From Rhizobium sp. 32-5/1 (GTDB taxonomy: Bacteria > Pseudomonadota > Alphaproteobacteria > Rhizobiales > Rhizobiaceae), in assembly GCF_029537235.1 (NCBI RefSeq), contig NZ_CP120638.1:930001-994000 (forward strand): a stretch of 64,000 nucleotides of DNA. The letters are read 5' to 3'. Under the pieces are notes generated by a model. That model did no database searches, was not told where the DNA came from, and saw only the letters and a program-made list of their open reading frames with translations. The translations under genes and the position numbers were made by a program. The first letter of the stretch is position 1; every line of letters starts with the position of its first letter. Positions 1 to 64,000 of the stretch are shown one piece after another.

Positions 1-372
1 AACCGGCCCTATTCCTACCAGGAGGTCAAGGATTGGGGTGCCGTCGGCTGGATCAATCCGGCCCGCGGATCGCCGATCATCTCGATCCTGATGCAGGGAC
101 AGGCCAGCACCGCCGCCTACCAGGCCAACAAGCTCCTCAACGAAAAGCCTCCGTCGATGAAAACCCTGTCGACGGCCGTCACCACGGACAATGCCGCCGG
201 CCTCAACTATTTCCGCATCGACGGGCCGCTCGATGACGGCAATGACAATCTCGACGATGCCAGCGCGAAAAACCTCGGCAAGCTGGAGGACATCGCCAAC
301 GGCTTCATCAAGGCCAACCGGTTGGCGCTCGATACCGTGGCCGCCCGCATCAAGGCGGCGAAGTTCGCTTAG
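1..372 (+). CDS. Patatin-like phospholipase, C-terminal part
   Basis: The reading frame is open from the window edge and ends at TAG 370-372, so only the last 123 residues are present. The fragment begins within a segment typical of bacterial patatins after the catalytic Asp region (GWINPARGSPIISILM, then GQASTAAYQANKLL), and ends in an alanine- and lysine-rich helix. Patatin-family enzymes are acyl hydrolases with a Ser-Asp dyad. The GxSxG and DG(A/G) motifs would lie upstream of the window and cannot be checked. Assignment rests on the C-terminal pattern only. Confidence 0.7.
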   Translation, partial: NRPYSYQEVKDWGAVGWINPARGSPIISILMQGQASTAAYQANKLLNEKPPSMKTLSTAVTTDNAAGLNYFRIDGPLDDGNDNLDDASAKNLGKLEDIANGFIKANRLALDTVAARIKAAKFA

Positions 373-468
373 GAACGGAGGTACCACGCGCTCGCCCAGA
401 CATTTTCCGCTTCCAAGCATCCTGCGCTGCCGCTAATTTACGGCACGAGGAATCAACGGGACGGACCC

Positions 469-1032
469 ATGGCATCGGCGGCGGCACTGGCTCAGGCGAC
501 AGAACTCTATGCAGCCGTGCTGGATGGCAATCCCATCCACCCCAATGGCTGGCCGATCCGGATCATCGTCACTTCGCAGACGGAGGCCCGGCACAACCGG
601 CAGGCATGGGCGCCGAGCCATCTGATCTCCATCCGCGCGCCGGGCACCAAGCTCCTGTCGATGATCGACATTGCCGCGGAAAACCACCTGGAACTGTTGT
701 TCGGCGATGTCACCGACCCTGACGAGCGGGAGGCGGCGCGGCCGGAGGCGATCGAGAAGACCTTCGCCTTCATCGACAGCCTGCCGGCGGACGCCAATCT
801 GCTGATCCACTGCCTGCGCGGCATCGGCCGCTCGACGGCGCTGACGCTCGGCATTCTCGCCCGCTACATGGACCCGGAAGAGGCCGCAGCGACGTTGCAT
901 GCCCTGCGCCCGGAAGCCAAGCCCAACCGCCACGTGGTCGGCCTTTGCGACACCGCACTTGGGCTGAAGGGCCGGCTGGCGAAACAGGCGCTGCGCTTTC
1001 CCGCCAAGGTCTGGAAGCCCGGAAAGGGCTGA
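469..1032 (+). CDS. Protein tyrosine phosphatase family protein
   Basis: A 187-residue soluble protein. It carries the phosphatase signature C(X)5R as HCLRGIGRS at residues 114-122, with Cys115 as nucleophile and Arg121 for phosphate binding; Asp83 or Asp85 in GDVTDPDE could be the general acid. The size and sequence fit the small alphaproteobacterial tyrosine-phosphatase-like group rather than low-molecular-weight PTPs, which carry the motif at the N-terminus. It stands alone after the patatin gene. The physiological substrate is not predictable. Confidence 0.8.
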   Translation: MASAAALAQATELYAAVLDGNPIHPNGWPIRIIVTSQTEARHNRQAWAPSHLISIRAPGTKLLSMIDIAAENHLELLFGDVTDPDEREAARPEAIEKTFAFIDSLPADANLLIHCLRGIGRSTALTLGILARYMDPEEAAATLHALRPEAKPNRHVVGLCDTALGLKGRLAKQALRFPAKVWKPGKG

Positions 1033-1063
1033 AACCTTCTCGCAAGAACGAAGGAGTTTAAAA

Positions 1064-1444
1064 CTGCGTCTCAACCAAGTGACCGTGACAATGCCGGACC
1101 TGGAGGCAGGATGGAAGTTTTACCGCACCCTTGGTCTCAAACCGGTGGTCGATGCAAGGCCGCGATATGCGCGTTTTGTCTGCCCGGATGGCAATAGCAG
1201 CTTTTCTTTGCATCAAGGTCAGGGCGGCGCTGGCGGAACCACTATGTATTTCGAATGTGACGATCTGGATGCGACAGTAGGCGTGCTGGTCAATGCGGGA
1301 ATTGTCTTCGCCTGCGGCCCCGAAGACAAGAGCTGGCTCTGGCGCGAGGCCGAGCTTTTCGACCCGGGCGGCAATCGCGTCATCCTGTATCATGCCGGAT
1401 CCAATCGCATCGACCCTCCCTGGAAGGTTCTTCCAATTGAATGA
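1064..1444 (+). CDS. VOC family (glyoxalase-fold) protein, probable CTG start
   Basis: A single vicinal-oxygen-chelate domain of about 126 residues (RLNQVTVTMPDLEAGWKFYR, later YARFVCPDGNSSFSLH and MYFECDDLD). Family members normally begin within two residues of this first strand. The only good ribosome site, AAGGAG at 1051-1056, lies 7 nt before an in-frame CTG at 1064. A GTG at 1079 would have its ribosome site too far away and would cut the first strand. I therefore prefer CTG 1064. The substrate is unknown. Glyoxalase, fosfomycin-resistance-like and dioxygenase functions are all possible within this fold. Confidence 0.75.
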   Translation: MRLNQVTVTMPDLEAGWKFYRTLGLKPVVDARPRYARFVCPDGNSSFSLHQGQGGAGGTTMYFECDDLDATVGVLVNAGIVFACGPEDKSWLWREAELFDPGGNRVILYHAGSNRIDPPWKVLPIE

Positions 1445-1617
1445 TCCACACATTTCTTGATTTTTGCACTACCCTTGAAGTCCCGTTCGCCGCCCTGGAG
1501 AAGGCTAGGGATGTGACTGCAAGCCAGGGAGAGACACACGATTGTGCAGCGCACAAAAATTTGACATGATGTGCCTCAACAACCGCGGGCAAGCGGTGGA
1601 ACGGTGGGAGGCTTTTT

Positions 1618-2547: not shown

Positions 2548-3320
2548 TTGGCCTGGTCCGCAGCGCAATATCTGAAATTCGAGGATGAACGCACCCGCCC
2601 TGCCCGCGATCTGCTGGCGCAGGTGGCGGAACCGGCAGACGGCATGCTCTGCGATCTCGGCTGCGGGCCGGGCAATTCGACGCAACTGATCGCGGAGCGT
2701 TTTCCCGACCGCACCGTCGCCGGCATCGACAGCGATGACGACATGTTGCGGACGGCGAAAAGCGCCTGCCGGGATTAAGCTTTCACAAGGCCAATCTCGA
2801 ACAGTGGGAACCCGAGGCGCCTGCCGGGCTGCTCTTTGCCAATGCCGTCTTCCAGTGGGTGCCGGACCATCTCCACGTCCTCGATAGGCTTATGGATTGG
2901 CTCTCTCCCGGCGGCACACTCGCGGTGCAGATGCCTGATAATCTCGATGCCGACAGCCATGTGCTGATGGAAACGGTTGCCCGCTCACCACGCTGGCAGC
3001 GGGCCTTTGGAGGTTTCGCCGTTCCCCGCGCGCCCCTTCCCGCCCCGTCCGCCTATATCGAAACGCTGGGCCGGACGGCTGCCCGGGTCGATGTCTGGCA
3101 TACGACCTACTATCACCAGTTGGAAAACGCCGCGGCCATCGTCGACTGGGTGGAGGGTACCGGCCTTCGCCCTTATCTCGCGCACCTGCCGGATAGTAAC
3201 CGCGACGCCTACCGCGCCGATTATCTCGAAGCGATCCGCCAAGCCTTTCCGACTATCGCGGATGGTCGGGTTCTCCTTCCATTCAAGCGGCTCTTCGTCG
3301 TTGCGATAAAAGCCGGCTGA
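2548..3320 (+). CDS. tam: Trans-aconitate 2-methyltransferase-like SAM methyltransferase, frameshifted as read
   Basis: The gene is read in two frames. The first half, from TTG 2548 with AAGGGGAG at 2533-2540, gives [18 protein letters not shown] and the SAM-binding motif [14 protein letters not shown]. The second half continues with [23 protein letters not shown] and a C-terminus ending [10 protein letters not shown], all typical of Tam. Adding one A to the A4 run at 2758-2761 joins them ([18 protein letters not shown]) into 257 residues, the usual Tam length. Tam methylates trans-aconitate, an inhibitor of the citric acid cycle. A sequencing deletion is more likely than a real pseudogene. 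Confidence 0.8.
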
Positions 3321-17188: not shown

Positions 17189-17864
17189 TTATCTCCTTAT
17201 AAAATCGCCGTGGGAAACTCGGCGGGAAAATGGTATATTTGTGGTACGACCGCTTGCCGGGCTTAGCTTGGGCTCGGGATCATCACTCAACCACCCCAGA
17301 ACCGCCTCCACCTTTCCCTCCGTCACCGGCTCGTCAGTGACGCTCACGGTTATGGAGTTAAGCCGATACCCGGGACCGAAAGAGGCTCCCAGATCGGCAG
17401 GATCAACTTTCTTCACGCTAGCCGGATCCTTAATATCGCCGAAGGTCACGAGCAGCGGGTAGTGTTTGCGGGGCAGTTCCAGTTGACGGGAATTGCTTGC
17501 ATCGGCTCGTTCCAAAAGCTCGCCAGCCTCTTTCGCAGGCATTTTTGGATAGAACAGCCAACCGGCGGAGGGTGTATCCTTCAAAAGAGCAAAGAGATAA
17601 CGACCGTTGGGAAGCGCCACCACGACGGCCTCACCCCGCAATGAAAAGCTCACGCCGATTGCTTCGGCAGGAACAAAAGCCCCCGCGTCTCCGTCATCCC
17701 TCCGCGCATGACGCTGGAGCCGGAGACAACACCATCCGGCGTTTGCACAGTCACCGTCAGCTTTTGATGCCAGCTCCAGCTATCGCTACACCCCTCAAGG
17801 CCAAATGCGGCGATCAAAAGCAGGAATAAAGCAGGCGCTTCCGCAGGCCGATCATGCCGGGCAT
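17189..17864 (-). CDS. Putative lipoprotein, first of two tandem paralogues, frameshifted as read
   Basis: Three reading-frame pieces make one protein. From ATG 17864 or 17855 comes a lipoprotein signal (MIGLRKRLLYSCF, then IAAFGLEGC). Next comes KLTVTVQTPDGVVSGSSVM, then LRGEAVVVALPNGRYLFALL and a C-terminus with GRTTNIPFSRRVSHGDF. Restoring one T to the T4 run (A4 at 17816-17819 on +) and one G to the G5 run (C5 at 17680-17684 on +) joins all three into about 225 residues. The family is an uncharacterised rhizobial envelope group. The next gene upstream is a divergent paralogue. The breaks fit sequencing deletions. Confidence 0.65.
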
Positions 17865-17913
17865 GCCCTTGCCGAAGTCGGACAATCGCTGCGAGCGGCA
17901 ATCAAGCCAGCCA

Positions 17914-18714: not shown

Positions 18715-21062
18715 TCAGGCTGCTTCGGAACCGGCAGTCGCGACCGACCCCGGCTCGGCCGCGAACATGCCTTCAAACGCTTCCGCCCGGAGCGGCTTGC
18801 TGAAGAAATAACCCTGTATCTCGTCGCAGCCGGAGATGCGCAGGAAATCCAGCTGGGCCTGTGTTTCGACACCCTCGGCAATGACCCGCATATGCAGCTT
18901 TTGCGCCAGCGAGATGATGGCGCCGGTGATCGCCATATCGTCTTCGTCTGCAGGAATATCCTGCACGAAGGACCGGTCGATCTTCAGGCGGCTGACGGGA
19001 AAGCTCTTCAGTGCGCTGAGGCTGGAATAACCTGTGCCGAAATCGTCGATCGCCAGTTGCACGCCGAGCGCTTCCAGCTCGTGCATCGTCGCAATTGCTG
19101 CCGGCACATCCTGCATGATCAGGCTCTCCGTCAGCTCCAGTTCAAGGTAGCGGGCTTCGAGACCGCTCTCGCGCAGGGCGGCCGAGACCCGGCAGACCCA
19201 ATCCTGTTCGCGAAACTGGCGGGCCGAAACGTTGACGCTGATGACGATCGGCGGCAGGCCGGCATCCTGCCAGGCCTTGTTCTGTCGGCAGGCCTCGTTC
19301 AAAACCCAATCGCCGATCGCGACGATCAAGCCCGTCTCTTCGGCCAGCGGGATGAATTCGCCGGGAGATACCATTCCGCGTTCTGGATGCTGCCAGCGCA
19401 CCAGCGATTCGGCGGCGAACATCCGGCCGGTCTCGAGATTCAGCTGCGGTTGGTAGTGCAGCACGAATTCCTGGCGGGCAACCGCATCACGCAGCTCCTC
19501 ATGACGCAAAAGCTTCTCGTGGGCCTTTGCGGCCATTTCGGCGCTGAACAGTTGGAGATTGTTGCGACCGATCTCCTTGGCCCTATACATGGCCGAATCC
19601 GCGTTGGCCAGCAGTTCGACCGCAGTCGCGCCATGCTCGGGATAGCAGACGACGCCCATGCTGCAGGTGATTTGCAGGCTATGCCCGGACAGCATCATGG
19701 GAGCGGCAATGGCGCTTCGAATTTTCTCAAAACGAGTCAACACGACCTCGCGCTCTGCCGGCAGGCCGGTGAGCATGATGATGAATTCATCTCCGCCGAC
19801 CCGGACGATCATGTCCGACCTTCGGACGCAGGTCCGCATGCGGTCAGCTACAATGCGCAGCAACTGGTCGCCGGAGTGATGGCCGAGGCTGTCGTTGATC
19901 AGCTTGAAATTATCGAGGTCGAGGAAAGCCAGCGCCACCCACTGGTCATTTTGCCGGGCCTCCTGGAGGGCCGATGCAACCCTTGCATCGAACAGCAGGC
20001 GATTGGGCAGGCCGGTCAGCGCATCGTGATGCGCCATGAACTGGATGCGCTCTTCCGACTGCCGTCGCTCGATGGCGATACCGGCCAGATGTGCGGCCAT
20101 CGAGATCAGTTCGTTGTGTTCCTCGCTCGGCAGTCCTTTCTGATAGGAGTAGAGCGCGAAGGTTCCAAGCACTTGCCCCTGATAGGAGCAGATCGGCGTT
20201 GACCAGCAGGATCGGTAGCCATATTGCGCGATAAGGGGGCATAGTCGACCCAGAGCGGATCGGTCAGCACGTCGGCAACGAAGACGGGCTTTCCGGTAAA
20301 GGCGGCAGTGCCGCAGGAGCCAACCTTCGGGCCGATGGCAACGCCATGGATGGCCGCGCAATAGACCGGGTCGAGATTGGGTGCAGCGCCTGTCAAAAGG
20401 TGGAGTTTGTCGGGAGACAGAAGCAGGATCGACCCCTTGATCCCCGGGAGTTGCGCCTCGATCAACAGGATCAGTTCGATAAAGAACTGTTCGATCGGCG
20501 CGCCGGCCGCAATCATCTCCAACAAGCTGGCCTGCCCGACCAGGAGCTGCTCCGCACGCTTGCGATCGCTGATATCGCGTGAAACGCCGACAATACCAAT
20601 GGTCGTGCCCTGCTTGTTGCGCAGCGGCAGTTTCGACGTCATCAGCCAGCGTTCGATCCCTTTCGTGACGACCGCCCGTTCCTCTATGCCGAAAATGGGT
20701 TCGCCCGTCTCGATGACCCGGCGCTCGGCTGCTGCGAATTTTGCGGCAGCCTCGACCGGGTGAAGATCAAAGTCGGTCTTGCCGAGAATTTCCTGCATGG
20801 TCTCGAAGCCGTTGTCCGTGACGGTCGCCTGATTGGCGACGAGAAACCGCCCCTCGAGATCCTTGGCATAGATGTAATCGGGGATGTGGTTCATCATCGT
20901 CTCTAGCCAGTAGTGGCGATCGGCGATGTTGGGTTCGGGCGCAAGCATGCGCGACACTTCGGCGGCGAGACGGTTGCTGGCATCGATCAGCCGGCGCGTA
21001 TCCTCGTTGCTGGCTGCCTTGGCTCCGATATCACCGCGGCTACGCGTCACGTTCTTTGTCAA
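18715..21062 (-). CDS. PAS-GAF-GGDEF-EAL cyclic-di-GMP protein, frameshifted as read
   Basis: A repaired length of 782 residues. A PAS domain (about 60-175: HIPDYIYAKDLEGRFLVANQ, ending GVSRDISDRKRAE) and a GAF domain (about 190-340) lie in the first frame up to WVDYAPL. Restoring one base in the G5 run at 20235-20239 joins it to IAQYGYRSCWSTPI. After the GAF domain come a GGDEF domain with intact RVGGDEF and an EAL domain with AESLVR and DDFGTGYSS. Both catalytic motifs look intact, so either synthesis or breakdown of c-di-GMP is possible. No transmembrane segment is seen. Confidence 0.88.
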
Positions 21063-23436: not shown

Positions 23437-24332
23437 TCACTGGAGCTGCCGCATGGTCTGGGCGATCTCGTCCCGTACCCAGGCCTTGAAGGCCGCGACG
23501 ACCTTGGTCTCGCGCCGCGCCGGCGACGTCACGAAATAATGGCCGAAGCCGGTTTTCGCCCAGTGGCGAAACGGCGCCTTCAGCCGACCATCGATCAGCG
23601 AATCCCCGGCCAGCGTCTGCCAGGCCAGCATGACCCCTTGGCCCGCAATCGCCGCGTCGATGCAGAGCGACGCCTCGTTGAAGACGTGGCGCACCTTCAT
23701 CTGCGCGCCGGACAGGCCGACCTCGCGCAACCAGGTCTCCCAGGAAAACATCGATCGACCATCGATGACCGCCGGGCACTGCAGAATATCTGCAGGCTCG
23801 CGCAGGGTTTCGGCGATCGCCGGGGCGCAGACGGGAAAACCTCCTGCGCCAGCAATGGCTCGGCGCGCACGCCCGGCCACTGGCCGAGGCCGACGCGGAT
23901 GCCGAGATCGACATCGGAGGTTTCGAGATTGGCAAGTCTTGTCGTCGCGTCGATGCGCAAGCTGATATCGGGATGGGCGAGCGCGAAACGATCCAGCCGC
24001 GACACCAGCCAACGGGCCGCAAACACCGGCGCCACCGAGATCGTCAGGACCGATTCGTCTCGACGCCGTGCAGAGGCCACCGCCTGATCGAGCATTTCGA
24101 AGCCACCGTTCAGCCGTGGCATCAGGCTTTCGCCGGCGGGCGTCAAAACGAGGCCGCGCGGACTGCGATCGAACAGAACCCGCCCGAGCTGCTGTTCCGT
24201 CTTGATGATCTGCTGGCTGACGGCGCCGATCGTCACGCCCAGCTCGTTGGCCGCCGCCTTCAGCGAGCCGAGACGACCGGTCGCCTCGACCGCGCGCAGA
24301 CCATTGAGATGGACGACATTCAGATCTTTCAT
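23437..24332 (-). CDS. LysR family regulator (GcvA-type), frameshifted as read
   Basis: The first 160 residues, from ATG 24332, hold the HTH (LNGLRAVEATGRLGSLKAAA, LGVTIGAVSQQI) and the start of a GcvA-like effector domain (SDVDLGIRVGLGQWPGV). The remainder (PVCAPAIAETLREPADIL ... DAAIAGQGVMLAW) continues in another frame. One added T in the T4 run (A4 at 23836-23839 on +) restores a 298-residue protein, the standard LysR length. It diverges from the small gene at 24421 and has a GST gene downstream. GcvA-like regulators often act on adjacent genes. Confidence 0.85.
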
Positions 24333-25885: not shown

Positions 25886-26637
25886 ATGCTGACATCACAG
25901 CGAAGGGCACTGATTACGGCGCGGCTGGCGCGGGACGGACAACTGGTGGCCAAGGCGCTAGCGGACGAACTCGGCGTGTCCGAGGACACGATCCGCCGCG
26001 ACCTGCGCGACATGGCGGCGGACGGACTGCTGCAACGGGTCCATGGCGGTGCACTGCCGCTTCAGCCGTCGCTGCCGGATTTTGCAGCGCGTCAGGAGAT
26101 CGGCGATGATGCGAAACGCGATCTCGGGAAAAAGGCTGCCGGTCTGATCAAGGCGGGGCAGTTGATCTTTCTCGACGGTGGCACGACAAATGCGCAGATC
26201 GCCCGGGCACTTCCCCGCAATCTTGCCGTGACCATCGCCACCCACAGCCCAACGATCGCCGCGGACCTCGTACACCACGCGGCCGAAGTGATTCTGATCG
26301 GCGGCAGGCTCTACAAACATTCCATGGTGGCGACGGGATCGGCAGCGCTGGCCGCGATCGGGGCCATGCGGCCCGACATCTTCTTTCTCGGCGTCACAGC
26401 GCTGCATCCCGTATACGGGCTCTCCACCGGCGATTTCGAGGAAGCTGCGATCAAGCGGGCGATTGCCGCGCAATCGGCGGAAACTTATGTTGCCGCCACC
26501 AACGAAAAATTCGGCACCACCTCCCCCACCGGATCCTGCCTGTGGAACGATTGGCCGGACTGATCGTGCAGGCGGACGCAAACGAGGAGACGCTGGCACG
26601 GTATCGGGAGATGGGAATGTCGATCCTCGAGGCATGA
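25886..26637 (+). CDS. DeoR/GlpR family transcriptional regulator, frameshifted as read
   Basis: A repaired length of 250 residues. The HTH has QRRALITARLARDGQLVAKA, LGVSEDTIRRDLRDM and LLQRVHGGALP, the DeoR signature. The sensor domain has IFLDGGTTNAQIARALP and LIGGRLYKHSMVATG. As read the frame stops soon after KFGTTSP. Adding one C to the C5 run at 26523-26527 restores HRILPVERLAGLIVQAD and a normal end at TGA 26635-26637. Such regulators sense sugar phosphates. It is divergent from the DUF4406 gene. Confidence 0.88.
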
Positions 26638-34153: not shown

Positions 34154-34410
34154 ATGCGTGCTCTTCTGACATCACTGACTGTCATTGCCGCGATCTCCTT
34201 TCCTCGGCAGCATTCGCCGCCCAAAGCACCGTAGGCACGATCAAGTCCTACAACGCCAAGGCGATGATGCTGACCCTGCGCAACGGCACCGCCTACCAGC
34301 TTCCGCCCAACTTCAAGGATCCGGGGCTGAAGGCCGGTGAAAAGGTCAAGATCGCCTATGACACCGTGAACAAGAAACATGAAGCAACAGCGGTCACGCT
34401 GGTGCAATAG
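34154..34410 (+). CDS. DUF1344 secreted small protein, frameshifted as read
   Basis: An 85-residue protein after restoring one T in the T3 run at 34199-34201. The signal peptide (MRALLTSLTVIAAISFSSAA, then FAA) is then followed directly by the DUF1344 domain: QSTVGTIKSYNAKAMMLTLR, GTAYQLPPNF, LKAGEKVKIAYD. The fold is a small beta-barrel. The function is unknown, and the protein is probably periplasmic. AT-rich inverted repeats at 34001-34025 lie in its upstream region. A strong terminator follows at 34471. Confidence 0.8.
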
Positions 34411-34704: not shown

Positions 34705-34869
34705 CCAGAGGCTGTTTCTCAACATCCTTCTTCCTGGTCTGCCCTTCGTGGCACTGCCGGCTGCTGTTTTGGCTGGCGCTATCTAAAAACTGCCGTGACC
34801 TGATCCGATCGTCCGCCGATGGCTGCATGCCCCGGGCCATCTGATCGCCGGCAAGACCAGAGAACGATC

Positions 34870-40039: not shown

Positions 40040-41574
40040 CTGCGCAGAAGCCCAATATCCTCATCATCATGGTCGATCAGCTCAACGGAAAATTCTTTCC
40101 CGACGGCCCGGCGGATTTTCTGCATGCGCCGCATATGATGGCGCTGGCCGCCCGCTCGGCCCGGTTCCGCAACAACTACACATCCTCGCCGCTCTGCGCC
40201 CCTGCCCGCGCCTCGTTCATGGCCGGGCAATTGCCGAGCCGGACGCAGGTCTACGACAACGCCGCCGAATACATTTCCTCGATCCCGACTTTCGCGCATC
40301 ACCTGCGCCGCGCCGGCTATTACACGGCACTGTCGGGCAAGATGCACTTCGTCGGGCCAGACCAGTTGCACGGCTTCGAGGAACGGCTGACGACCGATAT
40401 CTATCCCGCCGATTTCGGCTGGACGCCTGACTATCGCAAGCCCGGCGAGCGCATCGACTGGTGGTACCACAATCTCGGCTCCGTCACCTGTGCCGGCGTC
40501 GCCGAAATCACCAACCAGATGGAATATGACGACGAGGTGGCGTTTCTCGCCAACCAGAAGCTCTATCAGCTGTCGCGCGACAACGACGATCAGGGGCGTC
40601 GTCCGTGGTGCGTGACGGCGTCCTTCACCCATCCGCACGACCCTTATGTGGCGCGCCGCAAGTTCTGGGATCTCTATGAGGGCTGCGACCAACTCGAGCC
40701 GGAGGTCGGCACGCTGCCGATCGAAGAGCAGTGCCCGCATTCGCTGCGCATCATCCATTCCTGCGATTACGTCGCTTTCGACGTGACGCGGGAAAACGTG
40801 CGGCGCTCGCGCCAGGCCTATTTCGCCAATATCTCCTATCTCGACGAAAAGGTCGGCGAACTCATCGACACGCTGACCCGGACCAGAATGCTCGACAACA
40901 CGATCATCCTGTTCTGCTCCGACCATGGCGACATGCTCGGCGAGCGTGGGTTGTGGTTCAAGATGAACTTCTTCGAGGGCTCAGCGCGCGTGCCGCTGAT
41001 GGTGGCCGGCCCGGGCGTCACGCCCGGCCTGCACCTGGCGCCCGTCTCCAATCTCGACGTGACGCCGACGCTCTGCGATCTCGCCGGCATTTCCATGGAC
41101 GAGATCATGCCCTGGACGGATGGCGAAAGCCTCGTGCCTGTCATCAACGGTGAGGAGCGTATTTCGCCGGTGCTGATGGAATATGCCGCGGAAGGCTCCT
41201 ATGCGCCGATGGTCTGCATTCGCGAGGGCAAGTGGAAATACATCCACTGCGCGCTCGATCCGGACCAGCTGTTCAACCTCGAAGCCGATCCGCTGGAGCT
41301 GACCAATCTGGCCAAGGGCCCGACGGATCCCGTCCTCATCGCCACGTTGAAGGCTTTTACCGATATGCGGGAAGTGCGCTGGGATATGGCGCAATTCGAC
41401 GCGGCGGTGCGCGAAAGCCAGGCGCGGCGCTGGGTGGTCTACGAGGCGCTGCGCAACGGCGCCTATTATCCCTGGGATCACCAGCCGCTGCAAAAGGCAT
41501 CCGAACGCTACATGCGCAACCACATGAACCTCGATAATCTCGAGGATTCCAAACGTTACCCGAGGGGTGAATGA
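40036..41574 (+). CDS. betC: Choline-sulfatase BetC
   Basis: A 512-residue sulfatase from GTG 40036. The formylglycine motif [14 protein letters not shown] places Cys54 as the residue to be converted. Metal-site blocks [11 protein letters not shown] and [17 protein letters not shown] are present. The C-terminal part ([17 protein letters not shown]) is typical of BetC. It hydrolyses choline-O-sulfate to choline and sulfate, feeding betaine synthesis and sulfur supply in the cytosol. It overlaps betI upstream; its TGA overlaps an ATG 6 nt before the preferred betB start. Confidence 0.95.
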
Positions 41575-41576
41575 CC

Positions 41577-43041
41577 ATGAAAGCCCAACCCAAAGCCTCG
41601 CACTTCATCGACGGCGAATATGTCGAGGATACCGCAGGCGCACCCTTCGATAGCCTTTATCCGGCCACCGGCGAAGTGATCGCCCGGCTGCATGCGGCGA
41701 CGCCCGCCATCGTTGAAAAGGCGATTGCCGCCGCCAAGCGCGCCCAGCCCGAATGGGCAGCATTAAGCCCGACGGCGCGCGGCCGTATCCTGAAGCGCGC
41801 CGCCGATATCATGCGGGAGCGTAACCGCGAGCTATCCGAACTCGAGACGCTCGACACCGGCAAGCCGATCCAGGAAACTATCGTTGCCGATCCGACATCA
41901 GGCGCTGACGCCTTCGAATTCTTCGGCGGCATCGCCGCATCGGCGCTGAACGGCGACTATATCCCGCTGGGCGGCGATTTTGCCTTCACCAAGCGCGTGC
42001 CGCTCGGCGTCTGCGTCGGCATCGGCGCGTGGAACTATCCGCAGCAGATCGCCTGCTGGAAGGGCGCACCGGCACTGATCTGCGGCAATGCCATGGTCTT
42101 CAAGCCATCGGAAAACACCCCGCTCGGCGCGCTTGTCATCGCCGAGATCCTGATCGAGGCCGGCCTGCCGAAGGGGCTCTACAACGTTATCCAGGGGGAT
42201 CGGACGACAGGCCCGCTGCTCGTCAACCACAAGGATGTGGCCAAGGTTTCGCTGACCGGCTCTGTCGAGACCGGCAAGAAGGTGGCCGGTGCGGCGGCCT
42301 CGAACCTCAAGCATGTGACGATGGAGCTCGGCGGCAAGTCGCCGCTGATCGTGTTCGATGACGCCGATCTCGAAAGCGCCATTGGCGGTGCCATGCTCGG
42401 CAATTTCTACTCGACCGGACAGGTCTGCTCCAACGGCACACGCGTCTTCGTCCAGAAGGGCATCAAGGACAAGTTCCTCAAGCGCCTCAAGGAGCGCACC
42501 GAAAAAATCGTCATCGGCGACCCGATGGACGAGGCGACGCAGTTCGGCCCGATGGTCTCGAAGGCGCAGCTCGACAAGGTGTTTTCCTACATCGAGAAGG
42601 GCAAGGCCGAGGGCGCGACGCTGCTGACCGGCGGCGGCATTCCCAATTCCGTCTCGTCGGCCGGCAACTACATCCAGCCGACCGTCTTTGCCGACGTCAC
42701 GGACGCCACGACGATCGCGCGCGAAGAGATCTTCGGGCCTGTCATGTGCGTGCTCGATTTCGACAGCGAAGATGAAGTGGTCGCCCGCGCCAACGCCACC
42801 GAATTCGGTCTTTCGGCCGGCGTGTTCACGCAGGACATCACCCGCGCACATCGCGTGGTGGATGCGCTGGAGGCCGGCACGCTGTGGATCAACGCCTACA
42901 ATCTGGCGCCGGTCGAGGTGCCGTTTGGCGGTTCCAAGCAATCCGGCTTCGGTCGTGAGAACTCCATCGCAGCGCTGAACCACTACAGTGAGCTGAAGAG
43001 CGTCTATGTGGCGATGGGCAAGGTCGATCTCGCCGTATTGA
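41577..43041 (+). CDS. betB: Betaine aldehyde dehydrogenase BetB, 3' end disturbed as read
   Basis: An NAD-dependent aldehyde dehydrogenase of about 487 residues. It has [21 protein letters not shown] loop [11 protein letters not shown], general base in MELGGKSPL and the catalytic Cys in [12 protein letters not shown]. Start 41577 has GAGGGG 9 nt upstream. BetB proteins end soon after [10 protein letters not shown]. Here the frame runs on into the repeat to 43430, but a shift near 43026-43034 (two bases missing, or one extra) ends at TGA 43039-43041 with APY or SPY, as in relatives. It oxidises betaine aldehyde to glycine betaine. Confidence 0.9.
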
Positions 43042-43052
43042 GATTTTACTGC

Positions 43053-43182
43053 CTCTTCTCCCCGACGGGGAGAAGTGCCGAGCGCATGCGAGGCGATGAG
43101 GGGGCGATACGGCAAAACTTCAACTTTGGGGCTCCCCTCATCCGGCCCTGCGGGCCACCTTCTCCCCGGTGGGGAGAAGAGG
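43053..43182. repeat. RIME-like mosaic palindromic intergenic repeat, copy 2
   Basis: Hairpin arms CTTCTCCCC-N3-GGGGAGAAG lie at 43055-43075 and 43159-43179. Internal blocks GCGAGGCGATGAGGGG and CCCCTCATCCGG appear in the reverse order to the copy at 3842-3964, so the two copies are inverted relative to each other. It lies inside the bet operon, between betB and betA. Confidence 0.85.
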
Positions 43183-43251
43183 CAGCCAGACCCTATAACT
43201 CGACACCAGAAGCCACCAACGGCGGATGCTGGGATAAGAAAGATCACCGCC

Positions 43252-44902
43252 ATGCACCAGGCAGACTACATCATCATCGGTTCCGGCTCCGCGGGCTCGG
43301 CGCTTGCCTATCGTCTTTCCGAGGATGGAAAGAATACCGTGCTGGTGCTGGAATATGGCGGCAGCGATTTCGGGCCGTTCATCCAGATGCCGGCAGCGCT
43401 CGCCTGGCCGATGAGCATGAGCCGCTATAACTGGGGTTATCTCTCCGAGCCCGAGCCGAACCTCAACAACCGGCGCATCACCGCGCCGCGCGGCAAGGTC
43501 ATTGGCGGGTCGTCATCGATCAACGGCATGGTCTATGTGCGCGGCTCGATGGAGGACTATAACGAGTGGGAAGAGCTCGGCGCGCGCGGCTGGGGTTACG
43601 CCGATGTGCTGCCTTACTTCAAGCGCATGGAAAACTCGCTGGGCGGCGAAGAGGGTGGCGCGGCACGGACGGCCCCCTGCATGTGCGGCGCGGCTCCTTC
43701 AAGAACCCGCTGTTCAAGGCCTTCGTCGATGCCGGCCAGCAGGCCGGTTTCGAGTTGACCGACGACTACAACGGCTCCAAGCAGGAAGGCTTCGGCCTGA
43801 TGGAGCAGACGGTGCACAATGGCCGGCGCTGGTCGACCGCATCCGCCTATCTGCGCCCGGCGCTCAAGCGGCCGAACGTCAAACTGCTGCGTTGTTATGC
43901 CCGCAAGATCGTCATCGAGAACGGCCGCGCCGTCGGCGTCGAAATCGAGCGTGGTGGAAAAATCGAGGTGGTGAAGGCCAACCGCGAAGTCGTCGTCTCT
44001 GCCTCTTCCTTCAATTCGCCGAAGCTCCTGATGCTGTCGGGCATCGGGCCGGGCGCGCATCTGCAGGAGATGGGCATCGAGGTCAAGGCCGACCGGCCGG
44101 GCGTCGGCGCCAACCTGCAGGACCATATGGAATTCTACTTCCAGCAGGTTTCGACCAAGCCTGTCTCGCTCTATTCCTGGCTGCCCTGGTTCTGGCAGGG
44201 GTTGCCGGCGCACAGTGGCTGTTCCTCAAGCAGGGCCTCGGTATCTCCAACCAGTTCGAGGCCTGCGCCTTCCTGCGCTCGGCTCCCGGCATAAAGCAGC
44301 CGGATATCCAGTATCACTTCCTGCCGGTGGCGATTTCCTATGACGGCAAGGCGGCGGCGCGGAGCCACGGCTTCCAGGTGCATGTCGGCTACAACCACTC
44401 GAAATCGCGTGGCAACGTGACGCTGCGCTCGCCCGACGTGAAGGCCGATCCTGTCATCAAGTTCAACTATATGAGCCATCCGGAGGACTGGGAGAAGTTC
44501 CGCCACTGCGTCCGCCTCACCCGCGAAATCTTCGGCCAGAAGGCCTTCGATCCATATCGCGGTCCGGAAATCCAGCCGGGCGAAGCTGTGACCACCGACG
44601 ACCAGATCGATGACTTCCTGCGCGAGCATCTGGAAAGCGCCTATCACCCCTGCGGCACCTGCAGGATGGGCGACGCGAACGACCCGATGGCGGTGGTCGA
44701 TCCGGAAACCCGCGTCATCGGCGTCGATGGCCTGCGGGTCGCGGATAGCTCAATCTTCCCGCATGTGACCTACGGCAACCTCAACGGCCCGTCGATCATG
44801 ACCGGCGAAAAGGCCGCCGACCATATCCTCGGCAAGCAGATGCTGCCACGCTCCAACCAGGAACCGTGGATCAATCCGCGCTGGGAGACCAGCGACCGGT
44901 AG
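43252..44902 (+). CDS. betA: Choline dehydrogenase BetA, frameshifted twice as read
   Basis: A GMC-family flavoenzyme, 550 residues after repair. It has the FAD motif [20 protein letters not shown], the GMC signature 1 ([20 protein letters not shown]) and signature 2 ([19 protein letters not shown]), and a C-terminal His-Asn region ([19 protein letters not shown]). Two one-base deletions break it: G3 at 43653-43655 (repair gives [16 protein letters not shown]) and G4 at 44198-44201 (repair gives [15 protein letters not shown]). It oxidises choline to betaine aldehyde at the membrane. It is last in betICBA, after a mosaic repeat. Confidence 0.93.
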
Positions 44903-45920: not shown

Positions 45921-46309
45921 ATGAGATTTTCAGGCGGTTGTCTCTGCGGCGATGTCCGACTTGTGGCATCCGGCACCCCTTACCGGGTCGGCATTTGCCA
46001 CTGCCTCGACTGCCGCAAGCATCACGGCGCGCTTTTCCATGCCTCCGCGATCTTCCCTCTAGAGGCGGTCACTGTCACCGGCGAACCGCAAGACTATGCC
46101 GGGCGGTTCTTCTGTTCGCGATGCGGTTCCTCCGTTTTTCGCGCAGCGCGGACGAAATCGAGGTCAACCTCGGATCGCTGGATGCGCCTGACCAACTGAC
46201 GCCGACCTACGAACTCTGGACGACCCGTCGCGAGGCCTGGCTGCCGCCGTTTCCGCTGGCGAAACGATATGACCGCGATAGGGATGCCGAGGGACGCTTT
46301 GAGGACTAG
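45921..46309 (+). CDS. GFA family glutathione-dependent aldehyde-activating protein, frameshifted as read
   Basis: A 129-residue protein after adding one T to the T5 run at 46135-46139. The start MRFSGGCLCGDVRLVASG and CHCLDCRKHHGALF, with a later FFCSRCGSSVF, give the two zinc-binding cysteine sets of the GFA fold (Pfam PF04828). The repaired continuation SRSADEIEVNLGSLDAPDQL and ELWTTRREAWLPPF is typical. AAGGAG is 7 nt before the ATG. The family name comes from formaldehyde-glutathione adduct chemistry, but most members lack a proven reaction. Confidence 0.88.
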
Positions 46310-48467: not shown

Positions 48468-48515
48468 ACGCGCATCTGCCGGCCACCGCACCAGACTTCT
48501 TCCCGGAGATTTGAA

Positions 48516-49468
48516 ATGTCCCCCATCCATCCGGAAACGGAATTGCACAACCCGCAGAGCGCGAAGATCCCGCTCGACCCGCATCTGAAGGCGCTGGAAA
48601 ACGAAGCGATCCACATTTTCCGCGAAGTGGCCGCCGAATTCGACAATCCGGTCATGCTCTATTCGATCGGCAAGGATTCGTCCGTCCTCCTGCACCTCGC
48701 GCGCAAAGCCTTCTATCCCGGCCGCGTGCCCTTCCCGCTTCTGCACGTCAACACGGGCTGGAAGTTCCCGGAGATGATCGGCTTTCGCGATGCGCTGATG
48801 AAGGAATACGATCTCGACCTGATCGAGCACATCAACCTGCGCGGCGCGGCCGAAACCATCACGCCGTTTTCGCATGGTTCGGCGCTCTACACCGACATCA
48901 TGAAGACGGAAGCCCTGCGTCAGGCGCTCGATGCCGGTGGCTACGACGCGGCCTTTGGCGGCGCTCGCCGCGACGAGGAAGCAAGCCGTGCCAAGGAACG
49001 CATCTATTCCTTCCGCACGCCTGACCACAAATGGGACCCGCGCAACCAGCGCCCGGAACTCTGGAACGTCTATAACGGCATGATCCGCAAGGGCGAAAGC
49101 GTACGCGCCTTCCCGCTGTCGAACTGGACCGAAGTCGATATCTGGCGCTACATCCAGGCGGAAGACATCCCGCTCGTGCCGCTCTATTACGCCAAGCCGC
49201 GCAAGTTCGTGGATCGCGACGGCATGCTCGTCTGGGCCGAAGACCCGCGCTTCGAGCCCCTGCCCGGCGAACAGGTCCAGGAAGGCATGTTGCGGTTCCG
49301 CACCCTCGGTTGCTGGCCGCTGACCGGTGGCATCCGCTCCCATGCCACGACGCTCGACGAGGTGATCGCCGAGCTTGAAATCGCCACCGTCTCCGAACGT
49401 CAGGGCCGCGCCATCGACCGCGACCAGTCCGGATCGATGGAAAAGAAAAACGCGAAGGATATTTCTGA
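48516..49468 (+). CDS. cysD: Sulfate adenylyltransferase subunit 2 CysD, frameshifted as read
   Basis: A protein of 317 residues after repair. It has the PP-loop [40 protein letters not shown] and QDIFLP-like ending [14 protein letters not shown]. As read the frame slips at the A5 run 49446-49450. One added A gives KKKREGYF and a TGA at 49466-49468 that overlaps the cysN ATG, exactly as in other rhizobia. With CysN it converts sulfate and ATP to APS. Sulfate assimilation is a poor candidate for decay. Confidence 0.93.
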
Positions 49469-52740: not shown

Positions 52741-53006
52741 TCATGGACGACGTTTTGCGGCCTGTGCTTCGCCCGCCTCGGCGATGGCCTTCAACGACGC
52801 AAGGTCGCGCGCCTTGAGTTCCTCGGCGTCAAGGTCGTGCTTGCCGCGAAACCAGTCCATGGCAGCGGACAGAGCCTCGGCAAAGGGCGGTGGATAACCG
52901 CCGAGCCCCAGCACCCATTCGCGCACCGTCTCACGCTCCATCCGGCCGGCGGAATAGCGGCCGTGGATGCTTTGCACCGAGGAAATCAGGTCATCGATTT
53001 TTTCAT
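52741..53006 (-). CDS. Small hypothetical protein next to DUF982, frameshifted as read
   Basis: From ATG 53006, with GGGGA upstream, the frame stops after a few codons. Adding one A to the A6 run (T6 at 52998-53003 on +) gives an 88-residue protein starting MKKIDDLISSVQSIHGRYSA, then RMERETVREWVLGLGGYPPP and a charged helix ending AQAAKRRP. It lies 24 nt downstream of the DUF982 gene and is probably co-transcribed. I do not recognise a family. Confidence 0.5.
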
Positions 53007-53030
53007 GTGGTTTCCCCGTGGCGCAAGGGC

Positions 53031-53276
53031 CTATTCCTGAACATGGATTTCGGCCTCGGCGACTGCGGCAAGGAAAGCCTTGCGGGCGTCTTCGGGCTGC
53101 TTTTTCCCTTCAGCCACCGCCGCGCAGATATCCAGCGCCCGGGTCAGGAGTGGCGCATCGTCCAGCGGCCAATCCTCGATCATGGCCCAGGAGGCTTCCA
53201 CGGTGTTGGTGATCGTCGTGTACTTGCCCGGCCCCTCCAGGGCGAGCGTGACGCTCTTGCTCCAGGGTTTATCCAT
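53031..53276 (-). CDS. DUF982 family protein
   Basis: An 81-residue protein from ATG 53276. It matches the rhizobial DUF982 pattern: SVTLALEGPGKYTTITNTVE, AWxxLEDWP-like ASWAMIEDWPLDD, ALDICAAVAEGKKQPEDARK and AFLAAVAEAEI. These small proteins are numerous in Rhizobiaceae; their function is unknown. It is the first gene of a small pair with the 88-residue ORF. Confidence 0.85.
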   Translation of the reverse strand: MDKPWSKSVTLALEGPGKYTTITNTVEASWAMIEDWPLDDAPLLTRALDICAAVAEGKKQPEDARKAFLAAVAEAEIHVQE

Positions 53277-53506: not shown

Positions 53507-53583
53507 TGGTCGGAGTGAGAGGATTCGAACCTCCGACCCCGTCGTCCCGAACGACGTGCGCTACCAGGCTGCGCTACACTCCG
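53507..53583 (-). tRNA. tRNA-Pro (anticodon CGG)
   Basis: A 77-nt cloverleaf on the minus strand. The acceptor stem is CGGAGTG/CACTCCG with discriminator A and a genomically encoded CCA. The D arm has GCGCAGCCTGGTAGCGC, the anticodon stem CGTCG/CGACG encloses loop TTCGGGA (anticodon CGG), and the T arm is GGAGGTTCGAATCCTCT. All canonical pairs are present. No integrase or duplicated 3' end is seen next to it. Confidence 0.97.
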
Positions 53584-55365: not shown

Positions 55366-56567
55366 ATGAAAATCACCGGCCTTGAAACCGTGCGCGTCGC
55401 GGAGCGCGCCAATCTTCTCTGGCTGCTCGTCCATACCGACGAAGGCATTACCGGGCTCGGGGAAACCTTTTTGGAGCCCAGACGGTCGAAGCCTATGTGC
55501 ACGAATACATCGCGCCACGGGTGATCGGTCGCGATCCGCTGCAGATCGATCTTCTGGCCGCGGACCTCGTCGGCTATCTCGGGTTTCGCTCGTCGGGCGC
55601 CGAAGTGCGGGGCAATTCGGCCTTCGACATCGCGCTCTGGGATATCTTCGGGAAAGCGACCGGCATGCCGATCGCGCAATTGCTCGGCGGCTTCACCCGC
55701 CGCGAAATCCGCACCTACAACACCTGCGCCGGCACGGAATACATCAAGAAGGCGACCGGTCAGACGACGGCCAATTACGGACTGTCGGAAGGTAAGGACT
55801 ATGACGACCTCAACGGTTTCCTGAACAATGCCGACGAGCTTGCCCATTCGCTGCTCGAGGAAGGCATCACGGCGATGAAGATCTGGCCGTTCGATGCTGC
55901 GGCGGAGAAAACCCGCGGTCAGTATATCTCGATGCCCGATCTCGACCAGGCCTTGCAGCCGTTCGAGAAGATCCGCGCGGCTGTGGGCAACAGGATGGAT
56001 ATCATGGTCGAGTTCCATTCCATGTGGCAGCTTTTGCCGGCCATGCAGATCGCCAAGGCGCTGACGCCCTACAAGACGTTCTGGCATGAAGACCCGATCA
56101 AGATGGACAGCCTGTCGAGTCTCGCCCGTTACGCAGCCGTTTCGCCGGCACCGATTTCGGCATCGGAAACGCTGGGATCACGCTGGGCATTCCGCGATCT
56201 CCTGGAAACCGGTGCGGCAGGCGTCATGATGCTCGACATATCCTGGTGCGGCGGCCTTTCGGAAGCGCGCAAGATCGCTTCCATGGCCGAGGCCTGGCAT
56301 CTGCCGGTGGCGCCGCACGATTGCACCGGGCCGGTGGTGCTCTGCGCTTCCACCCACCTGTCGCTCAATGCGCCGAATGCGCTCGTCCAGGAAAGCGTGC
56401 GGGCCTTTTATCGCACCTGGTACCGGGATCTGGTGACAGCCCTGCCGGAGGTGAAAAACGGGATGATCACCGTTCCGCCGGGTCCGGGCCTTGGCATGGA
56501 GCTCAACCCGGACCTGGACCGGGCCTTTACAGTCAGCCGCCGCCTTTCGGATGCGGCCAGCCTGTAG
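55366..56567 (+). CDS. Mandelate racemase/muconate lactonizing enzyme family protein, frameshifted as read
   Basis: A protein of 400 residues after adding one T to the T5 run at 55468-55472 (joining LGETF to FGAQTVEAYVHEYIAPRV). The start at ATG 55366 has GGAGAG upstream. The catalytic barrel has ITAMKIWPFD (Lys), metal-ligand strands IMVEFHSMW, FWHEDPI and PISASETLG, and the His in VAPHDCTGPV. This is the acid-sugar dehydratase type of active site (mannonate/galactonate relatives). The exact substrate is unknown. It is between GntR and DMT genes. Confidence 0.85.
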
Positions 56568-58661: not shown

Positions 58662-59938
58662 TTAACGCAGCCATTGAGCAGGCACGATGACGATGTCCGG
58701 AAACAACACCAGCATGAAAAGGACAAAAACCTGTGCGGCGAGGAACGGCAACACGCCGATCGTGACCTTGCCAAGCGGGACGCGGCCCACGCCGCTGACG
58801 ACGTTGAGAACAACGCCGACGGGTGGTGTCAGAAGGCCGATGCAGCAGTTCATAATGAACATCACACCGAAATAGACAGGGTCAATGCCGGCCTGCTTGA
58901 TAATCGGCATCAGGACCGGCGTCAGGATCAGGATGGTCGGCGTCAGGTCAAGCGCGGTGCCCACGATGAGGACGAGGATCATGATGGCGAACATCAGCAG
59001 GATCGGACGGTCGATCAGCGGCTCGATATAGCCGGTGATTTCAGCCGGAATATTCGCGGCGGTAATCAACCAAGCGGACACGAGTGCGGCGCAGACCAGG
59101 AACATCACCACGGAGGTGGTCTTTGCCGCCTGAAGGATGACGCGCGGCAGATCCCGCAGGTTCAATTCCCGGTAGATGAACACGCCGACGAACAGCGCAT
59201 AGGCGGCGGCGACCACGGCGGCTTCCGTCGGCGTGACGACGCCGGCCTTGATGCCGCCCAGAATGATGACAGGCATGCCGAGCGCCCAAAGGGCCCGAGC
59301 CGTAACCCGCATGCGTTCCTTCATCGGCGTCTTCGGCAGCGCCTGAACATTGTCCTTTCGAACGACGATCAGCCACGTCACGATCAAGGCCACGCCCATC
59401 AGAAGGCCGGGCACGATGCCAGCCATGAAAAGCTGCGTGATCGACACATTGGCGGCCACGCCGAAGACGATGAACGCCATCGACGGCGGAATGACGGGCG
59501 CGATAATGCCGCCGGCTGCAATCAGACCGGCCGATCGCGGCACGTTGTAGCCGGCCGTGGCCATCATCGGGATCAAGATGGCGGCGAGTGCGGCCGTATC
59601 GGCAGCGGCCGATCCGGAAATGCTCGCCATGATGATGGCGGCCATGATGGCAACAATGCCAAGACCGCCGCGAATATGGCCGACGCAGGCAATGGCGAAT
59701 TCGATGATGCGGCGCGACAGGCCACCGGCATTCATCAGTTCGCCAGCGAGAATGAAGAAGGAATCGCCAGAAGCGTGAAGGTATCGGCGCCCCCGATCAT
59801 GTTCTGCGCGATGATCTGCGTGTTGAACATGCCCATGAACCACATGAGCACGACGCCGCAGAACATCAGCGAGAAGGCGACCGGAACGCCAATGGCCATG
59901 GCGCCGACAAGGGAGCCGATGAAAACAAGCAAGGTCAT
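58662..59938 (-). CDS. TRAP transporter large permease, DctM family, frameshifted as read
   Basis: A protein of 425 residues after adding one T next to 59759-59760 (joining FTLLAIPF to FILAGELMNAGG). The first part is MTLLVFIGSLVGAMAIGVPV. About 12 hydrophobic segments follow, including GGIIAPVIPPSMAFIVFGVA and LNLRDLPRVILQAAK. The ATG overlaps the DctQ stop codon by four bases (ATGA). It forms the sodium-coupled channel with DctQ. Confidence 0.9.
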
Positions 59939-61694: not shown

Positions 61695-61713
61695 TTGTCA
61701 GGATGTCTGACAA
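61695..61713. promoter_or_regulatory. Candidate GntR (FCD) operator upstream of the FAH-family gene
   Basis: A palindrome TTGTCAG-N5-CTGACAA (61695-61713) lies between the GntR gene and the FAH-TRAP genes, about 50 bp before the preferred FAH start. It resembles FadR/LldR-type operators (TnGTnnnACnA core). A possible -10 element (TACTAG) lies just upstream on the minus strand. Confidence 0.65.
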
Positions 61714-61812
61714 CGCTCCGCGTGTCTTTCTAGTATGACTTTTCCCACCTGTCCAGAGCAGAAGATCCGCAGCCCGCTAAAACCTGCAGGCGAATTCCTC
61801 TGCGCCAGCCCC

Positions 61813-62529
61813 TCAGGATATTTCGAGCGTCAGGTCCAGTCGCGCGGCCGCTCCAATGAGGTGGCTGCGCATGGCGGCGCGGGCCTTCATCGGGTCCCGC
61901 GTTACCACGGCGTCGCGGATGGCGACGTGTTCTGCGATCGTGGTTTCGACGATTTCCTCAAGCACGGCAGCAGCGCGTGCCGCGTTAATGGCAAGACTGA
62001 TGCGCTCGGCGATAAAGCCGACGAACAGCGGAAAATACTCGTTGCGGGTGGCTATCGCCAAAGCCCGGTGAAAAGCGAGATCGGCAACGATTCCCTGGTC
62101 CGTCCATTTCTCGGCGCCGGTCATCCGCGCAAGCGCGTCGTCCAGTTTTTTCAGATCGTCATCGTTGTGATGAACGGCAGCAAGGCCAGCGGCTTCGATT
62201 TCCAGCGGCATGCGCAACTGGAAGAGGCTGCGGAAGGTCTCGCGATCACTCAGTGCGGTCTGCTCGATACGAATAGCGCCTCGGCCCTGAGCCTCCAGAA
62301 CGAAGGCGCCGACACCCTGGCGTGTCTCCACCAGTCCCTCGTTGCGCAACTGGGCGATGGCTTCGCGCACCACGGACCTGCTGACGCCGAAGGTCTTGGC
62401 AAGAAGATGCTCGGTCGGCAGCCTTTCGCCAGGCGCGATGCGGCCTTCCGTGATTTCCTTGCCGATATGGCCGGCAATGCGCGCCGGGAGATGCTCGTTC
62501 CGTCTGATCTGGCTGAAGTCCGCCGTCAT
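61813..62529 (-). CDS. GntR family regulator, FadR/FCD subfamily
   Basis: A 238-residue protein. The winged HTH has GKEITEGRIAPGERLPTEHL, KTFGVSRSVVREAIAQLRNE and GVGAFVLEAQG. The FCD domain has ELRLALE-like FQLRMPLEIEAAGLAAVH and DLAFHRALAIATRNEYF with the metal His/Asp residues. It is encoded between the FAD-linked oxidase gene (33-nt gap) and the FAH-TRAP genes. It is the likely repressor acting at the palindrome 61695-61713. Confidence 0.92.
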   Translation of the reverse strand: MTADFSQIRRNEHLPARIAGHIGKEITEGRIAPGERLPTEHLLAKTFGVSRSVVREAIAQLRNEGLVETRQGVGAFVLEAQGRGAIRIEQTALSDRETFRSLFQLRMPLEIEAAGLAAVHHNDDDLKKLDDALARMTGAEKWTDQGIVADLAFHRALAIATRNEYFPLFVGFIAERISLAINAARAAAVLEEIVETTIAEHVAIRDAVVTRDPMKARAAMRSHLIGAAARLDLTLEIS

Positions 62530-62562
62530 GCCATTGTCCGTTCCTGATGATGCCAGACTATT

Positions 62563-64000
62563 CTACGATATGGCGGGGAAATTCAATTGGCAGCCGGGGT
62601 TCATGACCATGGATGGATCGATGGCCTGCTTCAGGGCCGTGAGCAAGGTGCGCCGGGTAGGATCAAGCCGCTGTTCGAAATCGGCGCGCTTGAGGCGACC
62701 GATGCCGTGCTCGGCGCTGATGCTGCCATCGTACCTGTCCAGAACCTGGTTCACGACCGTCTTTGCCTTGTAGATCCGGCTGGCTGCGTCCTCCGGTGAA
62801 CAGCCTGCCGGTGGCAGGACATTGAGATGCACATTGCCGTCGCCCACATGGCCGTAGGACACGCTGATGCAGTCGGGAAGCGCATCCGTGACAGCCTGTT
62901 CGGCGTCGCGCACGAAATCGGCAAGACGGGAGAGCGGCACGGAAATGTCCGTTCGCATATGGGGGCCGCGCTTGGCCTGTCCCTCGTTCATGCCTTCGCG
63001 GAAAAGCCAGAGATTGCGGGCCTGCGCCTGCGAGGCGGCGATGACACCATCAACGACAAGACCGTCCTCCATGACGCCCGTGAGGAAACGCTCCATCAGA
63101 TCGGCGATATCGACAAGACCGGAGCCGGAAATCTCCATAAGCACATAGGCCGGATAGTCTCCGGCAATCGGCATGGGCAAGTCGGGGATTGCTTCCCGCG
63201 CAAGGACGAAGGTGAGCGGCGGCATGAATTCGAAGGCCGACATCAGGTCGCAGCAATCGCGCCGGGCGCGGCGGTAGAGCTTGATCGCATCATCGAGCGA
63301 GGCAAGCCCCAGCAAGGCGGTCGCCACCTGATCGGGGAACGGCGTCAGCTTGATTGACACGGCGGTGATGATGCCGAGCGTGCCCTCGGCACCGATGAAA
63401 AGCTGCTTCAGGTCGATGCCGCGATTGTCCTTGCGCAGGGTCGATAGGCCATTGAAAATCGAACCATCGGGCAGCACCACCTCCAGGCCGAGGACCAGTT
63501 CGCGCGTCATGCCGTAGCGCAATACGTTGATGCCGCCCGCATTGGTGGAGACATTGCCGCCGATGCGGCAGGAGCCCTGGGCACCAAGCGCCAGGGGAAA
63601 TACATATCCTTTTCGGCAACGGCATCCTTCACATCTGACAGGATGCAACCGGCTTCGACCACGGCCGAAAAGTCATCCGCATCGATATTGCGAATGGTGG
63701 TCATGCGCTCGAGGCTCAAAACCACCTGGTTGGCCGGCTGATCGGGAATACCGCCCAGCACCAGTCCGGTATTTCCACCCTGAGGCACGATCGAAAGTCC
63801 AAGGTCGAGGCAAGTGCGAACCGCGGCGGCAACGCCTTCGGTCGAGCGCGGCCGCAGCACCGCTATGGCGCTGCTGGTCACGTCCCCGTGCCAATCCCGG
63901 CAAAAGCGCTGCATGTCCTTCGGGTCTGTCAACACCATGTCGCTGGACAACGCGGTCCACAGGGCTTCCTGCAAACCCGCAACCGCGCCTGTGACATCCA
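62563..64000 (-). CDS. FAD-linked oxidase, D-2-hydroxyacid dehydrogenase type, 5' end beyond window, frameshifted as read
   Basis: At least 479 residues after repair; the frame is open to the window edge and the start lies outside. The first part holds the PP-loop of the FAD_binding_4 domain (VPQGGNTGLVLGGIPDQPAN). One C restored in the C4 run (G4 at 63594-63597 on +) joins DMYFP to LALGAQGSCRIGGNVSTNAG, the FAD-binding core. The C-terminal FAD-oxidase_C domain has SYGHVGDGNVHLNVLPP and SAEHGIGRLKR (metal-binding His/Glu). It is related to D-lactate, glycolate and D-2-hydroxyglutarate dehydrogenases and is probably the first enzyme of this catabolic operon. Confidence 0.9.

Follow-up and report, generated by a model that had tools for sequence, protein, structure and literature searches.

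Are the genes of Rhizobium sp. 32-5/1 that appear to be broken by frameshifts broken in the organism, or only in its assembly? This question is raised by a stretch of 64,000 nucleotides, herein referred to as the window, which covers positions 930001-994000 of contig 1 (NZ_CP120638.1) in a three-contig assembly totalling 5.62 Mb (GCF_029537235.1). An earlier inspection of these letters without database searches, herein the sequence-only reading, listed 19 frameshifts in the window, all attributed to one missing base and taken together as the signature of homopolymer under-calling. Judged by comparison with related genomes, the frameshifts lie in the text of the assembly and almost certainly reflect sequencing errors. 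More specifically, we consider it highly probable that they are uncorrected errors of a poorly polished nanopore-type assembly and that the organism itself carries these genes unbroken.

For this analysis, intact proteins of the relatives were aligned to the window with a purpose-written aligner that allows frameshifts, and the DNA was then inspected. The automatic filter accepted a site when it was supported by at least 2 genomes and by at least 70% of the genomes spanning it; clusters within the first 25 codons of the reference, with poor flanks, or of mixed sign were excluded before counting. The letter runs named by the sequence-only reading are found where it placed them, and the comparison with related genomes, which it had proposed as a check, showed that intact homologues carry one additional base at all 18 of the listed sites that could be tested. 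Fourteen of the 19 sites (2758, 20235, 23836, 26523, 32113, 34199, 34919, 36001, 43653, 44198, 49446, 55468, 59759, and 63594) passed the automatic filter, with a one-base loss (-1) in every supporting relative. At 31311, the same loss was found in 8 of 8 relatives when the filter on the first 25 codons was lifted; the position of the break, at codon 24, explains why the site was filtered out. The site at 46135 showed -1 in the one relative aligned (1/1). At 52998, one base more was found at the DNA level in all seven aligned relatives, five of the alignments stopping 7 bases past the gap and two running through it. For 17680, there was no DNA match among 25 congeners; four of four plasmid homologues gave -1 at 17676-17709 under the strictest frameshift penalty, and at two laxer penalties one of the four gave +1 and -2 instead. 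No homologue alignment was found for or against the break proposed at 17816, close to the start of the small gene that also contains 17680; a lipoprotein-like start, in our own reading, would fit this break. The runs had been named for the lost letter; at 2758, 23836, 31311, 34199, 36001, 43653, 55468, and 59759 this letter cannot be pinned down, and the base may have been lost from the border of an adjacent run instead.

The repaired lengths that had been called normal agree with the proteins of relatives: 257 residues for Tam, 550-551 for BetA, 317 for CysD, and 425 for DctM. The statement that decay is otherwise absent was upheld within the set of genes examined, which comprises betB and 14 of the listed genes (those of 17680 and 52998 lie outside it). 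Compared with the best relative, none of these 15 genes has an in-frame stop, and the pieces flanking the breaks have identities of 0.54-1.0 to that relative. Against other, mostly longer, reference open reading frames (ORFs), single apparent stops were noted for cysD (3/7) and a racemase gene (1/8).

The rate expected by chance was estimated by running the same aligner and filter on the same region of six relatives. With strict support (at least 3 genomes, single sign), 12 sites were found in 51.1 kb of the window and 6 in 379.9 kb of the control, a 15-fold difference (P 7e-8, counted by hand). With a looser filter applied to three regions, 45 sites in 193.8 kb compare with 56 in 730.6 kb of the control, only a 3-fold difference, because shadow ORFs create noise in GC-rich DNA. 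One of the control genomes, G003, shows seven -1 clusters and a single -2 cluster in 200 kb (C1 2254001-2454000), each against 2 of 2 relatives. This genome may itself carry some long-read errors, and so the control would be conservative.

Missing bases alone do not describe the window. In betB (betaine-aldehyde dehydrogenase; 41571-43041, plus strand), the sequence near the stop is GTCGATCTCGCC, compared with GTCGATTCGCC in the congener Rhizobium herbae DSM 26427, so that GATCTC is written at 43026-43031 where R. herbae has GATTC. All seven relatives shown have one base fewer here, and the same gap was found in five of seven relatives in a separate pile-up of DNA alignments. As written, betB has 619 codons (ORF 41571-43430), compared with 487-489 in relatives: the extra base removes the betB stop and creates a false ORF that crosses the spacer and overlaps the betA start. 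This insertion was missed by the sequence-only reading. Its count of missing bases was upheld wherever it could be checked, and its rule that every frameshift is a missing base is broken by betB. With betB added to the 19 listed sites (17816 counted), the window has 20 sites in 17 genes. No second place like the one in betB was found among the 58 GANTC-derived insertion words scanned in the window.

The same kind of event was found far beyond the window. Five regions of contig 1 were sampled: the window (64 kb), the rpoB/ribosomal cluster (60 kb), and further regions of 200, 100, and 100 kb, with 349 kb covered by at least one aligned relative. In this wider count, references shorter than 110 aa were also excluded, and the exclusions leave secE (66 aa) and the site at 31311 (where 2 of 8 spanning relatives pass the codon filter) outside the losses counted. 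Accepted events comprise 71 of -1, 5 of -2, and 22 of +1. Housekeeping genes are among those frameshifted, several relatives agreeing for adk (adenylate kinase, 3/3), secE (5 relatives), and gatB (2/2), and one relative each indicating breaks in eno (enolase), kdsA (KDO-8-P synthase), a dihydrolipoyl dehydrogenase gene, and nuoG. A viable cell that had lost adk, secE, gatB, and the others together is most unlikely. That some genes such as rpoB are intact is expected at the observed rate of about 0.28 events per kb.

Losses are concentrated at homopolymers. A run of at least 4 letters lies within 9 nt of 48 of the 71 losses, compared with 12.5% of random places and none of the 22 gains; a run of at least 5 is nearby in 24 of the 71 losses and at 2.5% of random places. 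Two internal controls that are independent of reading frame, a census of run lengths and a comparison of rRNA operons, gave similar evidence. In 554 kb, only 2 C/G runs of at least 6 were found where 63.1 were expected from the pooled relatives, and 13 A/T runs of at least 7 where 37.0 were predicted. Within the window, the corresponding numbers are 0 versus 7.3 for C/G and 1 versus 4.3 for A/T, the latter not significant alone. Three 23S-5S-tRNA stretches of this genome (3.2-3.5 kb) differ by one substitution and at four places by single-base indels, all of them in one-letter runs. One of these indels falls in a tRNA, leaving it one base shorter than its counterparts in the remaining two copies.

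Gains follow a different rule. One of two word pairs derived from GANTC (GAGATC/GATCTC and GATTCTG/CAGAATC) lies within 14 nt of 15 of the 22 gains, compared with 2.8% of random places. The recurrent spellings are GAGATC written for GAATC and GATTCTG written for GATTCG. GAGATC was noted from the ribosomal and 200-kb regions before the last two regions were analyzed; in a hold-out test on these two regions, the GAGATC/GATCTC pair alone was found at 5 of 8 gains against a background of 2.5% (P 5e-7). GANTC is described as the methylation word of CcrM in Alphaproteobacteria (PMC12710330), and a search for the RAMA domain, as present in CcrM, gave one match over the cut-off, at G000:C1:1025766 in an uninterrupted frame of 390 aa; Caulobacter was the sole match among 14 control genomes. 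GANTC is probably methylated in this strain as well, as far as can be judged from sequence.

These two classes of events suggest how the errors might have arisen. The assembly would have been made from long reads, most likely of Oxford Nanopore type with older basecalling, without adequate polishing. One base would then be dropped in or beside homopolymers, and one base would be added at some GANTC words, where adenine methylation by CcrM may alter the signal and lead to misreading. Accurate reads should show the intact sequence. Nanopore-type reads with weak polishing would account for both losses and gains, whereas other platforms would be expected to give mainly losses. The best surviving alternative, and still an improbable one, is an artefact of such a platform (early PacBio, 454, or Ion Torrent): pyrosequencing and Ion Torrent, too, typically lose bases in homopolymers, but three contigs for 5.6 Mb indicate long reads, and gains at GANTC agree with signal-based sequencing of native, methylated DNA.

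Real, recent frameshifts, as in a mutator or decaying lineage with contracting homopolymers and genes being lost, are still less probable, and we regard them as very unlikely. Mismatch-repair mutants mutate by homopolymer contraction, and the losses do lie near runs. Such mutants, however, also lengthen runs, and none of the gains is near a run of at least 4; the gains are instead found at GANTC, away from runs. The breaks in adk, secE, and gatB, on each of which at least two relatives agree, the differences in run length between rRNA operon copies, once inside a tRNA, and the absence of in-frame stops in the 15 genes compared with the best relative likewise speak against mutation. Pseudogenes would be recognized by further decay beside the frameshift and by the sparing of essential genes, and this pattern was not found. 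Programmed frameshifting or slippage that restores the proteins from a correct text can practically be dismissed: slippage can occur on runs such as A6 or T6, but the same genes are in one open frame in relatives, the places and runs vary between genes, and rRNA and tRNA copies are also affected.

Several observations weigh against attributing all events to uncorrected nanopore-type errors, or limit the strength of the counts. Support from intact homologues covers 18 of the 19 listed sites, 17816 being outside. Three places were counted on both strands, so that the distinct places number 69 for -1 and 21 for +1, and a single relative underlies many of the events (at least two relatives support 41 of the 71 losses). 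The link between gains and methylation is also qualified. One of the five hold-out matches (E2 5592) is doubtful, being a weak event on one relative, and the GATTCTG/CAGAATC pair was added after the events had been seen and hence is not independent. GANTC words are not depleted overall in the assembly, and an added base was found at 5 of 274 GAATC/GATTC words shared with G016, compared with 3 of 190 in G003, with no clear difference; these two results imply that only a minority of GANTC words are affected. Losses, too, show a mild excess of GANTC (7/71, P 0.005). The proposal of homopolymer under-calling is thus borne out for losses by their enrichment at runs, the deficit of C/G runs, the rRNA operon copies, and the broken housekeeping genes; it covers neither the gains, which follow GANTC, nor the 23 of 71 losses that have no run of at least 4 within 9 nt.

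Errors of this type are well known. Errors in homopolymer length are described as the most frequent type of error left in assemblies built from long reads alone (Polypolish, PMC8812927), and Kastor (PMC12007338) and Homopolish (PMC8011154) deal with homopolymer indels. The assembly analyzed here resembles long-read-only bacterial assemblies in its one-base losses in or beside runs, its broken ORFs, and its lowered completeness; there is no difference in kind, and the near-absence of C/G runs of at least 6 makes it a strong case. Nanopore assembly errors at GANTC and at short palindromes are described for agrobacteria (PMC12710330), and two assembly errors linked to GANTC for Brucella (PMC12392509). 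The agrobacterial errors described are single-nucleotide polymorphism errors at motifs, whereas those found here are added bases with a repeated spelling, which may be published already. The finding is ordinary in kind, a known data artefact, and the insertion class extends the sequence-only reading.

Taken at face value, the assembly would lead to intact genes being scored as lost, including betA, betB, and cysD in the window and adk, secE, and gatB outside it. Scaling 98 events in 349 kb to 5.62 Mb, with 87% coding assumed and contig 1 regions alone sampled, gives coding indels on the order of 1,400 in the assembly. Studies of gene loss, pseudogenes, or pangenomes should leave this assembly out or correct it beforehand. 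Its completeness is estimated at 87.47%, compared with 99-100% for 24 of the 25 congeners and 78% for the remaining one (G014). With R. herbae among these congeners, the strain belongs to the Pararhizobium group of rhizobia. The added bases may also preserve readable signs of the methylome in the finished sequence, with GAGATC/GATCTC and GATTCTG/CAGAATC in place of conserved GANTC marking sites methylated by CcrM; we hold this tentatively, at slightly under an even chance. If true, it would be possible to search unpolished public assemblies for the motifs modified by their methyltransferases, with no need for reads. The congener with 78% completeness looks worse than the assembly studied here: it has 6 contigs, its rpoB is in 7 pieces, and its TRAP permease gene is in two. 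It is probably another error-laden long-read assembly.

Additionally, the word ATGCAT is scarce in the five regions of contig 1, with 5 occurrences versus 38 expected in 324 kb. At 64 places where relatives have ATGCAT, 25 read ATGCAC or GTGCAT here, 19 of these in a codon phase that makes the change synonymous. Restriction avoidance or selection and a methylation-linked miscall are equally likely explanations of this scarcity, and codon phase does not decide between them.

Some candidates were set aside. A plain pile-up of DNA gaps recovered few of the known sites, because the aligner scatters gaps at 75-85% identity, and was rejected as a detector, although it did reveal the betB site at 43028. 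Among its candidates, the site at 30152 is a natural difference common to two congeners (G013 and G023), and those at 5132 and 5282 are ordinary divergence. A cluster at 48484 passed the automatic filter as the fifteenth in the window, was of mixed sign, and was discarded.

The affected genes of the window encode enzymes, regulators, transporters, and small proteins. Trans-aconitate 2-methyltransferase (tam; 2548-3311, plus strand; identified through an NCBIfam match of the G013 homologue) is one base short at about 2758, with -1 in 4 of 5 spanning genomes. The site near 17680, with the proposed one at 17816, belongs to a small protein with a lipoprotein-like start in our own reading and no Pfam match for either piece (17192-17901, minus strand). 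Three genes were assigned by domain matches and are each one base short: those for a PAS-GAF-GGDEF-EAL protein (18718-21062, minus strand; about 20235, -1 in 7/7 genomes), a LysR-family regulator (23455-24332, minus strand; about 23836, 7/7), and a DeoR-family regulator (25886-26634, plus strand; about 26523, 6/6). The loss near 31311 lies in the gene for a PIG3-family NAD(P)H quinone oxidoreductase (30393-31387, minus strand). An alpha/beta hydrolase gene (31486-32285, minus strand) is one base short at about 32113, the loss being seen against two of two genomes whose proteins are 55-57% identical. The gene for a DUF1344 protein (34023-34407, plus strand) is one base short at about 34199; -1 was found in 2/2 genomes when the codon filter was applied and in 6 (plus strand) when it was lifted. 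The gene probably begins downstream of 34023, and a cluster at 34114-34119 that precedes the likely start was set aside. An ABC-F family ATPase gene (34831-36394, plus strand), whose best NCBIfam match is below the cut-off, lacks a base at about 34919 (-1 in 3/4) and at about 36001 (5/5).

Downstream of betB, the choline dehydrogenase gene betA (43258-44899, plus strand) is one base short at about 43653 and at about 44198, each loss being seen against all seven genomes (7/7). The betB-betA spacer contains a repeat of about 135 bp (43050-43190), which has dozens of matches across genomes of the genus at 81-90% identity; we take it to resemble a small interspersed element of the RIME-like type. 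The gene for a GFA-domain protein (45924-46303, plus strand) contains the loss near 46135. The gene for the sulfate adenylyltransferase subunit CysD (48531-49465, plus strand) is one base short at about 49446, seven codons before its end, with -1 in 7 of 7 genomes. A small ORF with no Pfam family, located beside a DUF982 gene (52744-53109, minus strand), has its loss at about 52998, near the likely start. At 53940, downstream in window order of a tRNA-Pro (53507-53583), the sequence is one base short compared with 5 of 5 relatives, with no gene assigned; this place, perhaps one more lost base, is outside the 20 window sites, yet inside the 71 losses (as 53939/53940). The gene for an enzyme of the mandelate racemase/muconate lactonizing family (55366-56564, plus strand) is one base short at about 55468 (-1 in 8/8 genomes), and that for DctM, the large permease of a TRAP transporter (58665-59938, minus strand), at about 59759 (7/7). 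The last affected gene, for an FAD-binding oxidase with FAD_binding_4 and FAD-oxidase_C domains (62566-63998, minus strand), reaches the window edge and is one base short at about 63594, with -1 in 8 of 8 genomes.

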